Origin: Nitrosomonas sp.
GTDB taxonomy: Bacteria; Pseudomonadota; Gammaproteobacteria; Burkholderiales; Nitrosomonadaceae
Direction of reading: 5' to 3'
DNA: 57,013 bases
NCBI GenBank assembly: GCA_008015595.1
Contig: SSFW01000153.1
Coordinates: 1-57,013, forward strand
A program made the translations under genes and the position numbers. Shown here one piece after another: positions 33,530-38,422 of the stretch (positions within the stretch are counted from its first letter, which is position 1; every line of letters begins with the position of its first letter). The notes below the pieces were generated by a model. It searched no databases. It saw nothing but the letters and a program-made list of their open reading frames with translations, and had not been told where the DNA came from.

Positions 33530-36500
33530 TTAATTTAGGGGTACAAACTTATAGGTATTATCTTCCTTCTTAACTTCAACTAGATATGCAGAGCTATTAA
33601 GCCTTTCTCCATTTTTCTTATCAAATTCGATCTCTCCAGTAATTCCTAACATTTTATTATTTGGGTTTGAAATTATGTGTTGTAAATTATCTCGGTCTAC
33701 GGAATTACCAAGCTTACCAAGCTGTTTTATCCCATTGATAACTAGCTGAGTGGCGTCATAAGCCAAAGCAGTTCTCCAGGTTACTCCGTTCATACTTCTC
33801 CATAACTCATTAGCTTTATTGATAAAATTTTTGTTTACATCATTATTATGTGAACTTGCATGCCAATAAACAGGCAAAATCATATCTTCAACTGCTTCAC
33901 CCCCTAGCAAAAGAGTATTTTGGTTATATAAAGTTGGGCTAGCGTACAACTTGAGTTTAGGTTTTATATTTTTATTTTCCATTGCCATATTGATTGCATC
34001 ATGAATTGTATTCACGTGAGGAGCTAAAATTAAACTACTAATTCCATTAGTTCTTATATTTTGATCGGTAAGTATTCCTGGAATGGGATCAGGTTTATGG
34101 AAATCACAATCTATATCTGAAAAGGCATTCTTATATTGACTTGTATGAGATAAATTTTTAAAGCGTACTTGATCGTGAGCATTAGAGTCATAGCAAAGAA
34201 GAATTTTTTTATCACCTACAATAGGAATTTTTTCAAATAATTTAGTGATTAAATGACTGACATCAAAAGCAAGTGAATAAACAAAATTTTTGCCACCATT
34301 CTTATTTTTTTCAATTTTATCAAAATCAAGCGCAAAGCTTGTTGGAGAGATCATTAGCATCTTATTTTTTTGATAAATTTCTATTAAGTCATTTGATACA
34401 TTACTGGCATTATGTCCTATGACAGCTAAAATCTCGGGTTTGTCCTTAATTACATAGTTAATAATTTTTTTTGCTTTTTCTGATTCATTATCATCATTTG
34501 CTAAACTTATAAAGAGAGCTGGGTTTGAACATGCTTCGAGTGCTGGCTCTTTCTCGCATTTTTCCCAATTAGGATTGAATTCATGCTGTGCTTGTGCCAC
34601 ACCTCGCAGTATTTCTTGGGCGATAATTGGATTTTTCTCCATTGGGGCACTAACAATAATTTCGAAATATTTTGTATCGTGCCCACGTAATTTAATGTTG
34701 CTGTTGTGCCAGTAGATTAAGGCCTCGGGGTCGTCTAGCAGCTTATAAGATTTTTCGAATGCATCACTAGCTTGCTCGAAGTTTTCTTTATTGACATACT
34801 GAACACCAGATCTTTTAAGGTAATGTGTTTTTATAAAAGAACGTTCTCCTTCACTAATCATTTCTTTTGCTTCATCTTTTAGGTGATCCTGATATAGACA
34901 TGCAGCCCCAAAAGATAAAAATACAAATCCTATAAGTGGGTATACATAAGTTATCTTATTATCTCGACGCTTTTTAGCGTTTGCAAAATTAATTACTAAT
35001 TGCGATAGCGGGTAATTTTCTTTTTCAAAATCTTTTATTTTTTTATAATGATCCCCATTCGGGAGGGATTTTGACCTATAACCTTTCTCAGCCCAGCTTC
35101 TGGCATCTTTCTCAAATCTATCCTGATCTTCGATAAAACTCTTGTGATTTTTCAGTACTACAGTTGGTACCCATTCCCAATGTCGTATAAGTGCTTCATG
35201 AATAACCTCTATAGTTGTATCATCATTTATATGATTAGCAGATTTAGATTCATTATTAGCAGGTGCAGATTGATTGTTAGCTTGCTTTGGCGAATTGATT
35301 ACGATTAGTCGGAAATCAGCGCTTGCTAATTTTTCAACGATTGGCCAGAATTTTCTTAATGATGAACCACTCGCTATGCGAGGCATAATGGCTGTATGTT
35401 CATTCTTGAATAATAGTGATGAGAAAATTTTTTCAGCTATAACTTGCTCTTTATTTTCTAATTTCCCTAATACGTTTGACGCGTGAAAAGTTATTACTGT
35501 TCTACTGTTCATGCTGTCGTAGTCTTTTATGGTGATTTCATAGTCATCTTCCGCTCTTTTCTTTGACCAGTTTTCAAATATCATCCATAAGGAAAGTTCA
35601 AGTAAAGCTATGCTTTGAGGGGTTGATTTTTCCTTTACTTCAGTAATTAATTTTTTAACTAGTCTATCGCTGACTCTAAATGAGCATGCTACTGCAGGCT
35701 TTACAATAATGTCTTTGAGCTCAGGATCCTTTATTTGAGGAAGCAAAGATTCATTATCAGAAAAGTTTTTATATATTTCAGGGTATTTGAGAAAAATAGA
35801 GTCATCAAGGCTAGATTTTTTCAGAGTGATTACAAAAAAAATTTTCCCAAATTTTTTTGAAGAGTTAATTGCTAATAATAAGCAATTAACAAATGAGCTG
35901 CAGGTTTCATCTTCAATGTTTGAATAAAATATTTCATCGAATTGATCGATGATGATCATCAGGTTTTGATCTTTGCTTATTGCTGTTCGAATACTTTTTA
36001 AATTTTCTTCTATTGATTTAGGATCTCTTTGAAGCTCATCTGCTAAATCTATCGGGCTATTTGAATATTTTTCAATTAATGGAGATAGTGCGTAGGCGAT
36101 TTCTTTGAATGGATGGATTCTGGGACGAAAATAAGTAAATTGCCATTTATCTTTTTGTTTATCTGAGAGCGAAGGTACTATTCCCGCCAGAACTACAGAT
36201 GATTTCCCACTACCTGAAGGACCTGTAATGACGGTGAGTGTTTTTTTATGATCTACAATTCTTTTGATAATCTTATCAATAAAGTCTTCTCTACCAAAAA
36301 AAAGCTTTTTATTTTCTGGACCGTAATGAGATAGATTTAAATATGGATTAACTACTTTCCTAGCTTTGTTACTTTTCAATTCTGGTGTTGGATTTTCGTA
36401 GTTAATAATTTTTAGAATAGGCCATTTTTGCTTAACAGCATCTAGAATAGCTGCTGGAAGATCTTTATCGCACTCGAGTCTTTGTATGAATCGGATGCTT

Positions 36501-36817
36501 TCTGGAATTAAAATTTCTTGCACATCATTATTCTTATCTATGACAGGAATGATTCGATTATCCAAATTCTTCCAATGTTTTATCGCAAATTCTATTTCTT
36601 TATGAACCCAACTATTTTCTGACACTGAATCAGGTGTTATTAAAATAATTAAACGATCGCTATGCTTTATTGCTTCTTCAAGTTGATCTGGAAATTTTTG
36701 TCCTAACTCCAATTTTTCTTTATCGAGGAAAACATCATAGTGATTTTTTTTTAGGAGATCATAGATTTGCCAAATAATCTGGGTTTGTTTGCTTGAGTAA
36801 GAAATAAATATTTTCAT
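33530..36817 (-). CDS. TIR domain - nSTAND NTPase - TM helix - periplasmic-binding-protein-like (Peripla_BP_6-type) fusion protein
   Basis: Residues ~1-135 TIR (MKIFISYSSKQT..., SENSWVHKEIE with candidate catalytic Glu74); ~165-610 nSTAND (GREDFIDKII, GPSGSGKSS at 199-207, IIIDQFDEI at 288-296, EVIHEALIRHWEW at 537-549); KKRRDNK then TM at ~622-643; ~717-1090 PBP-like (IIVSAPMEKNPIIAQEILRGVAQAQHEFN, AVIGHNASNVSNDLIEIYQKNKMLMISPTS, GITGEIEFDKKNGER). Confidence 0.85.
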   Translation of the reverse strand: MKIFISYSSKQTQIIWQIYDLLKKNHYDVFLDKEKLELGQKFPDQLEEAIKHSDRLIILITPDSVSENSWVHKEIEFAIKHWKNLDNRIIPVIDKNNDVQEILIPESIRFIQRLECDKDLPAAILDAVKQKWPILKIINYENPTPELKSNKARKVVNPYLNLSHYGPENKKLFFGREDFIDKIIKRIVDHKKTLTVITGPSGSGKSSVVLAGIVPSLSDKQKDKWQFTYFRPRIHPFKEIAYALSPLIEKYSNSPIDLADELQRDPKSIEENLKSIRTAISKDQNLMIIIDQFDEIFYSNIEDETCSSFVNCLLLAINSSKKFGKIFFVITLKKSSLDDSIFLKYPEIYKNFSDNESLLPQIKDPELKDIIVKPAVACSFRVSDRLVKKLITEVKEKSTPQSIALLELSLWMIFENWSKKRAEDDYEITIKDYDSMNSRTVITFHASNVLGKLENKEQVIAEKIFSSLLFKNEHTAIMPRIASGSSLRKFWPIVEKLASADFRLIVINSPKQANNQSAPANNESKSANHINDDTTIEVIHEALIRHWEWVPTVVLKNHKSFIEDQDRFEKDARSWAEKGYRSKSLPNGDHYKKIKDFEKENYPLSQLVINFANAKKRRDNKITYVYPLIGFVFLSFGAACLYQDHLKDEAKEMISEGERSFIKTHYLKRSGVQYVNKENFEQASDAFEKSYKLLDDPEALIYWHNSNIKLRGHDTKYFEIIVSAPMEKNPIIAQEILRGVAQAQHEFNPNWEKCEKEPALEACSNPALFISLANDDNESEKAKKIINYVIKDKPEILAVIGHNASNVSNDLIEIYQKNKMLMISPTSFALDFDKIEKNKNGGKNFVYSLAFDVSHLITKLFEKIPIVGDKKILLCYDSNAHDQVRFKNLSHTSQYKNAFSDIDCDFHKPDPIPGILTDQNIRTNGISSLILAPHVNTIHDAINMAMENKNIKPKLKLYASPTLYNQNTLLLGGEAVEDMILPVYWHASSHNNDVNKNFINKANELWRSMNGVTWRTALAYDATQLVINGIKQLGKLGNSVDRDNLQHIISNPNNKMLGITGEIEFDKKNGERLNSSAYLVEVKKEDNTYKFVPLN

Positions 36818-36982: not shown

Positions 36983-38422
36983 TTATACCGTAGATTTAGT
37001 CATACCATTCGAATAAATATCTTCCGCTATGGTTAATCCAAGATCAACCCCGCCAGTTTTTTGATCAAAGATTGGGTTGTTTGCACTATCAACCTTAAAA
37101 GCATCAAATACCCAATGTACGCCTAGATATACTCGGCTACGTCCATTTTCTTCGATCATTTGCCAAAGACCGCCCGGGAAATTGCGAACATGTCGAGGTC
37201 TAACCGTTCCTTTATTGTCTTTATTAACTCCGTTCATTTCTTCTGAAACAAAAGTCAATCCTTGAAATAAATTGTCAGAGTTGCGATCTCCTGGAGTAAC
37301 ACCATAGAAAAGGCGAGTCATGTGGAATGCTGCTGCACCAAACGTTGCGTGGCCTGATGGATAAGCTGGGAATGGGGGGGTAAAGTTCTTTTTCGATGAA
37401 TTGGTACTTGGTGCACCTAATGGTAACCAAAGGCTGTGGCAATCATTATCAATATTATTGTTGCCAATACCTGATGGTCCCATTGATGGATCATGTTCGC
37501 GAATACCCAAAACAGGGCGCCATAAATTGTGAATATACTTTTGTTCCCACGCGAGAATACCCGCATCGGCCATGGCAACGTTAACCATCGCAAATAGACG
37601 AGCATTTTCTAGGGGTGTATTTAAAGCACTCGTGTTGGGATTAGGTTTGTTGAGTGCAATTTCACGGATGATTTGATTATAGAGTCGTGGCGGTGTACCC
37701 AAACCGGAAGCGCCATCATAGCCCCAATAAAGCCCAATTAGAGTTTGATCAACTGTTCGGCGCGTGACAGGGGGGACGCTTAGTGATACAGCAGGTACGG
37801 TTGCCATTAATTCGGGGGCAATGCCTTTACTACGAACTTCGCGGAGTGCATTTGTGTAACTGGTATCGCCAGGTTGTGGCGGTGAGTTCAGTCCATGCCT
37901 GACTGTTACAGCAAAGCATTTTGATGCTGCTCCATAATATGGGGCATGATAGCCTTGATCTGGATCGTCTGGATCAGGACGATGCTTGCCACGCGCCATG
38001 GATGGGATGTATCCATCTGCTTTTGCATTAGGATCATTTTTACGATCATTTAATATCGCTAGCGCAACTGTTCTGCCATAGTTGAAGCCTTCATCAAAAC
38101 TTGGATTTGGCAGACTTACTGCTGATAAGCTAGTATCAAAGAAGTCTTGTTGACTTGGAAAGAGATTTAGTAATGTTGTATAGGCTGCACCTGCCACAGC
38201 AGCATCTGCAGATGCTGCTGGATTTGGAACCGGGAGTCCAGTTAAATAATGAGGAAAGCTTGGGTTATTTGCGACCCCAGCTAAGGCATCATACATCGCT
38301 AAATGTACAATCGCTAAGGCTCTAGAGCTTAGCGTGGGACCTGTCTGTTCATTTTTACCATTTGTGTGACTTATTCGGTTTGCCTCTAATGAGACATCAT
38401 TCCAATAAAGGATTGCATCCAT
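36983..38422 (-). CDS. Vanadium-dependent haloperoxidase (PAP2-like superfamily)
   Basis: Complete signature: KYIHNLWRP (Kx6RP), YPSGH, SRVYLGVH (SRx5H). Confidence 0.9.
   Translation of the reverse strand: MDAILYWNDVSLEANRISHTNGKNEQTGPTLSSRALAIVHLAMYDALAGVANNPSFPHYLTGLPVPNPAASADAAVAGAAYTTLLNLFPSQQDFFDTSLSAVSLPNPSFDEGFNYGRTVALAILNDRKNDPNAKADGYIPSMARGKHRPDPDDPDQGYHAPYYGAASKCFAVTVRHGLNSPPQPGDTSYTNALREVRSKGIAPELMATVPAVSLSVPPVTRRTVDQTLIGLYWGYDGASGLGTPPRLYNQIIREIALNKPNPNTSALNTPLENARLFAMVNVAMADAGILAWEQKYIHNLWRPVLGIREHDPSMGPSGIGNNNIDNDCHSLWLPLGAPSTNSSKKNFTPPFPAYPSGHATFGAAAFHMTRLFYGVTPGDRNSDNLFQGLTFVSEEMNGVNKDNKGTVRPRHVRNFPGGLWQMIEENGRSRVYLGVHWVFDAFKVDSANNPIFDQKTGGVDLGLTIAEDIYSNGMTKSTV

Follow-up and report, generated by a model that had tools for sequence, protein, structure and literature searches.

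We describe a gene of Nitrosomonas, here termed P0001, that encodes a 1,095-amino-acid protein with, from the N to the C terminus, a TIR domain, an nSTAND1 NTPase, one transmembrane (TM) helix, a TPR-like linker and a class I periplasmic-binding-protein (PBP) domain. On balance, P0001 is probably a one-protein transmembrane receptor of the effector–NTPase–sensor type, in which a periplasmic solute would lead to NAD+ cleavage by the TIR domain. The window (the whole stretch of DNA that was analysed; 57,013 nucleotides) makes up the whole of one contig in a Nitrosomonas genome assembly. Judged by sequence comparison, the sensor half of P0001 falls within a large family of cyanobacterial TM–TPR–PBP receptor modules, and the joining of a TIR domain to this module appears to be new.

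Domain architecture and membrane topology

Pfam matches to TIR_2, nSTAND1 and Peripla_BP_6 each exceeded the curated cut-off (Table 1), and both the TIR and the PBP folds that a sequence-only reading of this DNA had placed at the termini were found there. The motif positions given in that reading agree with our recomputed ones to within a few residues; for example, GITGEIEFDKKNGER of the C-terminal domain occupies residues 1058–1072 and the HEALIRHW tail of the nSTAND1 domain residues 540–547. The TPR-like helical linker between the TM helix and the PBP domain was absent from that reading.

Table 1 Features of P0001 and its upstream flank, in window coordinates
Feature	Residues	Position	Strand	Basis
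P0001 gene, TIR-nSTAND1-TM-TPR-PBP protein	1-1095	33530..36817	-	ORF (ATG start), Pfam domains
TIR domain	3-111	36485..36811	-	TIR_2 (PF13676), E 6.1e-20
WVHKE of TIR	70-74	36596..36610	-	aligned with WVHKE of NAD hydrolase tir-1
nSTAND1 NTPase	158-580	35078..36346	-	PF20703, E 1.1e-64
Walker A GPSGSGKSS	199-207	36197..36223	-	motif position recomputed
Walker B IIIDQFDE	288-295	35933..35956	-	motif position recomputed
TM helix, after KKRRDNK	about 622-651	34865..34954	-	hydropathy 622-640; AlphaFold helix 626-651
TPR-like helical linker	about 666-710	34688..34822	-	three helices in AlphaFold model
Class I PBP domain	about 717-1095	33533..34669	-	Peripla_BP_6, profile search, Foldseek
C875, half of covarying cysteine pair	875	34193..34195	-	87-module comparison
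C904, other half of covarying cysteine pair	904	34106..34108	-	87-module comparison
Terminator-like 15-bp hairpin, between upstream haloperoxidase gene and P0001		36881..36917	-	T-run match scored on + strand

The TIR domain is also matched by PF01582 (E 4.7e-10) and resembles the NAD hydrolases SARM1 and tir-1 (phmmer, E about 3e-6 to 1e-5). The placement of W70 and E74 that had been read as typical of NADase-active TIR domains holds, as the motif aligns with its tir-1 counterpart. Such a WxxxE placement is no guarantee of NADase activity, which we predict for P0001 from knowledge of the family. The activity of TIR NADases requires a catalytic glutamate (PMC10022894).

The proposed nSTAND NTPase is likewise borne out by its Pfam match and by both Walker motifs. 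The LR[AS]DF motif that follows Walker B in nSTAND1 domains is not present in P0001, which reads LKKSS at this site, whereas LR[AS]D[FY] occurs in all six other nSTAND1 sequences aligned with it; the NTPase cycle of P0001 may therefore be altered.

Hydropathy identifies a single TM segment, directly preceded by KKRRDNK (residues 615–621). Exactly one TM segment is also found in 106 of 118 ORFs in which the sensor module is fused to another domain, and an excess of Lys and Arg lies before the segment in 76 of 110 such ORFs and after it in 13. All 80 stand-alone homologues of the sensor module carry an N-terminal TM segment, with the Lys/Arg excess before rather than after it in 50 versus 10 cases. 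Within the module, C875 and C904 are both present in 60 of 87 sequences compared, both absent in 20 and found singly in only 7, a co-occurrence that would fit a disulfide bond formed where conditions are oxidising. A second pair, C754/C763, lies in an insert of the Nitrosomonas modules and is common to them. Because the single TM segment, the charge bias, the cysteine pairs and the signal-anchored stand-alone homologues all favour it, we strongly infer an N-in/C-out topology with an extracytoplasmic PBP domain, as had been predicted from the positive residues before the helix.

Alternatively, the helix could be a mere membrane anchor, with the PBP domain reading a cytosolic metabolite or phage product in the manner of Avs and bNACHT proteins. 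Known antiphage STAND sensors are cytosolic, and a hydrophobic helix also follows the NTPase in nSTAND1 relatives that bear WD40 repeats (L035 and L173), in which a WD40 propeller outside the cytosol would be odd; this calls for caution in reading the topology. We nevertheless regard a cytosolic sensor as improbable, in view of the charge bias around the helix, both cysteine pairs and the signal anchors of the stand-alone homologues.

An AlphaFold model of residues 615–1095 only, built on 61 aligned modules (mean pLDDT 91.8, pTM 0.91), contains a single long TM helix, then a set of three short helices and finally a two-lobed alpha/beta domain. The three short helices would fit a TPR-like unit, and TPR_2 matches occur at the equivalent position in two relatives (L191 and L189). 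Foldseek matched the model to class I solute-binding proteins of known structure (4ey3, 4obb, 4nv3 and 3td9; E about 1e-15); its matches to ectodomains of the metabotropic glutamate, GABA(B) and natriuretic-peptide receptors were weaker. Peripla_BP_6 covers residues 795–1084 (E 7.6e-12), a profile search gave matches to 4mlc (E 6e-28) and LIVBP (E 2e-21), and P0001 retains the near-invariant sensor residues W1014, R1015 and D1021. The likeness to branched-chain amino-acid-binding proteins noted from sequence stands for the fold and is weakened for the ligand. Glu226 of LIVBP (LivJ), the acidic residue that holds the ammonium group of the ligand, aligns with Pro961 of P0001 and with P, T, S or H across the family, so amino acids are not favoured; Ser79 of LIVBP is matched by Ser805. 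Aromatic acids or another small solute are as likely as amino acids.

A cyanobacterial sensor module with exchanged effectors

P0001 used alone as a protein query found no match in the genome contigs; its TM-to-end half, used as an alignment query, found 319 relatives in the genome collection, and among the 79 loci kept almost all were cyanobacterial. The sensor module is present in 91 of 387 genomes of the cyanobacterial phylum (E 1e-20) and in 1 of 399 genomes of the phylum to which the window belongs, namely that of P0001 itself. Among about 87 Nitrosomonas genomes, two others have the whole module and one (G026) a 67-amino-acid remnant; no relative of the module was found on viral contigs. 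Identity between P0001 and its relatives is 34–42% over the module.

We took a census of the N termini of the 118 fused ORFs, which include some duplicates. They comprise CHAT (48), AAA/STAND-like (30) and Ser/Thr kinase (25) domains, plus caspase and TIR groups; in 10 cyanobacterial ORFs a caspase, with or without nSTAND1, precedes the module. The partners CHAT, AAA/STAND, kinase, caspase and caspase–nSTAND1 are all cytosolic effector or signalling types. About 80 further ORFs are stand-alone modules with an N-terminal TM segment. On a quick tree of 87 modules, on which the Nitrosomonas branches are long, effector labels change 22 times against a minimum of 6, which indicates that effectors have been exchanged on the sensor module. 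The three Nitrosomonas modules fall together with one from Xenococcus (SH-aLRT 99); support for the three as a clade of their own is not firm (SH-aLRT 78).

A nutrient or stress receptor that serves signalling rather than killing or defence, and whose TIR domain yields a modest NAD-derived signal comparable to the phospho-signals of its sister kinases, would be consistent with the kinase fusions, with the very frequent stand-alone modules and with the lack of a defence gene near P0001. We consider it rather unlikely, as most partners (CHAT, caspase, nSTAND and TIR) are those of conflict systems (PMC7159879, PMC8195603), and the sporadic spread (3 of about 87 Nitrosomonas genomes) and the occurrence of sensor-module relatives on conjugative plasmids are more like what is seen in conflict systems than in core signalling.

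Several related loci stand out. In cyanobacteria, stand-alone TM–PBP genes are often situated within a few kb of a CHAT–TM–PBP gene (L081, L093, L098, L080 and others) and possibly encode partner receptors. The conjugative Nostoc plasmid pNLP1 (L165:508–9681, minus strand, and L220) encodes a 3,057-amino-acid protein with two caspase domains, nSTAND1, a TM helix and a PBP domain, and L173:2–5503 (minus strand) encodes a caspase–nSTAND1–TM–WD40–TPR–PBP protein; its TM helix, if real, would place the WD40 propeller on the non-cytosolic side. On a Streptomyces plasmid (L219:2197–5238, plus strand), a caspase–nSTAND1–SBP_bac_3 protein shows the same arrangement built with an unrelated PBP class, which suggests convergence. 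A caspase–nSTAND1 gene of a Gloeothece plasmid (L218:2770–6816) overlaps a separate PBP gene, and the pair adjoins a Trypco1 gene of conflict systems.

The P0001 locus and TIR versions in Nitrosomonas

P0001 sits among core genes that occur across Nitrosomonas: ribD, nrdR and glyA on one side, and an ABC/FtsX/HlyD operon and dciA on the other. Its immediate neighbours are genes for a haloperoxidase, a DUF6629 protein, an ABC transporter and a 2-hydroxyacid dehydrogenase, and it is apparently monocistronic. The haloperoxidase gene (window 36983–38422, minus strand) resembles vanadium-dependent enzymes (VCPO_N, E 9.5e-21; PAP2) and, among the matches listed, has a DNA match in one other Nitrosomonas genome (G039). 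PADLOC identified no other defence gene within about 8 kb (weak ATPase-only matches were disregarded). With housekeeping flanks and no defence neighbours, we rejected a defence island, and the surroundings lend no support to the defence role that had been suggested. Contamination was also rejected: of 85 genomes searched, 79 contain matches to the flanks, whose core genes are common to Nitrosomonas.

P0001 has a GC content of 0.328, whereas the flank on either side has 0.43; the gene is foreign by GC and a lone acquisition. Its TIR domain has closer relatives in the bacterial order of the host than in cyanobacteria. A cyanobacterial origin of this domain was rejected, with a close TIR in 3 of 378 genomes and none in an ORF fused to the sensor. 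P0001 thus looks like a local TIR/STAND head joined to a cyanobacterial-type sensor.

A transferred gene could also be a decaying or non-functional mosaic. The foreign GC content, the rarity and long tree branches, the remnant in G026 and the LKKSS sequence all fit such a fate. It is nonetheless very improbable for P0001, which keeps an intact ORF of 1,095 codons together with Walker A and B, WVHKE, the cysteine pair, W1014, R1015 and D1021; an independent TIR fusion in another genome (G054) is likewise intact.

In the genome samples surveyed, TIR and the sensor module were found together only in Nitrosomonas, in P0001 and in this second fusion. The latter, P0004 (L071:7317–9599, plus strand; Nitrosomonas sp. 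RBC050), is a 761-amino-acid TIR–TM–TPR–PBP protein in which the TIR domain directly precedes the TM helix. It has no STAND NTPase, its TIR domain belongs to another subfamily (motif WCMTE, residues 82–86) and its sensor is homologous to that of P0001 (37%). Arguably, P0004 is nearer than P0001 to a plain outside-in TIR receptor. Its gene overlaps that of a DASS-type transporter by a few bases.

In a further genome (G021), an nSTAND1 gene with a helical N terminus is split across two reading frames close to the end of a contig (L032:82–1762, minus strand), and a TM–PBP gene lies at another contig end. Joining these contigs (STAND on C12, TM–PBP on C8) was unsupported, as they share no sequence overlap.

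Proposed mechanism and known systems

In the mechanism that we propose, a small solute would be bound by the PBP domain in the periplasm, and lobe closure or dimerisation would be relayed to nSTAND1 by way of the TPR-like linker and the one TM helix. ATP-bound nSTAND1 would then oligomerise in the cytosol and bring TIR domains together, and the clustered TIRs would cleave NAD+, leading to cell arrest or death or to a cyclic-ADPR-type signal. Ligand gating, oligomerisation, NADase activity and physiological purpose are predicted here from family knowledge only. Avs5, a STAND protein with a Sir2 effector, drives NAD+ hydrolysis (PMC12931631), and NACHT antiphage proteins that bear TIR or Sir2 domains have been reviewed (PMC10952713). 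These antiphage STAND proteins (Avs5 and NACHT) share with P0001 the effector–NTPase–sensor layout and an NAD+-consuming effector (predicted in P0001); however, their sensors are described as cytosolic recognisers of phage proteins, whereas that of P0001 is probably a membrane-spanning solute-binding sensor.

The closest published precedent is the two-gene EACC1 conflict system described by Kaur et al. (2020), in which caspase proteins have a TM helix followed by an extracellular PBP (PMC7159879). Like P0001, this system, which is predicted only, places a cytosolic death-type effector, a TM helix and an extracellular PBP on one polypeptide; its effector is a caspase instead of a TIR domain, it requires a separate EACC1 gene, which was not found among the neighbours of P0001, and it occurs mainly in actinobacteria. 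The cyanobacterial caspase–nSTAND1–(WD40)–TM–TPR–PBP proteins (L165, WP_104910174; L173) have the same NTPase family, TM helix, homologous TPR–PBP half and domain order, but a caspase instead of TIR and extra domains. Orthocaspase surveys list fusions to Peripla_BP_6 or ANF_receptor in cyanobacteria (8 proteins in Table 1 of PMC8283722; PMC3501461); these have a homologous kind of sensor on a death-type effector, lack TIR and STAND domains, and were listed rather than studied. P0004 shares with P0001 the genus, the homologous sensor and the TIR effector, and differs in lacking the NTPase. None of the open-access papers searched describes a TIR version of the TM–PBP receptor. Within that scope, the suggestion that this exact version had not been characterised holds, but the class of architecture is less unusual than implied: caspase–nSTAND1–TM–PBP proteins exist, as do caspase–TM–PBP proteins (PMC7159879).

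The comparison with eukaryotic Toll-like receptors requires qualification. Both have a ligand domain outside, a TM helix and a TIR domain inside; however, the TIR domain of P0001 is N-terminal and its sensor C-terminal, the reverse of the order and orientation of Toll-like receptors, which have LRRs (no Pfam match in P0001), no intervening NTPase and a sensor that is not of shared descent. The likeness is thus an analogy only.

Tentatively, it is quite possible that the Nitrosomonas TIR receptors, with or without an NTPase, form a family that converts a periplasmic small molecule into NAD+ cleavage, a functional counterpart of Toll-type receptors made by grafting TIR domains onto a cyanobacterial solute-receptor module. 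The STAND-less P0004, at 761 amino acids, is of a size that suits direct biochemistry. If the proposal is true, bacteria could respond to a chemical cue outside the cell by depleting NAD+, and the death of kin, the product of a competitor or nutrient collapse are candidates for such a cue. The wider finding is the module itself, a single soluble-ligand sensor found joined to caspases, CHAT proteases, kinases, AAA/STAND NTPases and TIR domains.
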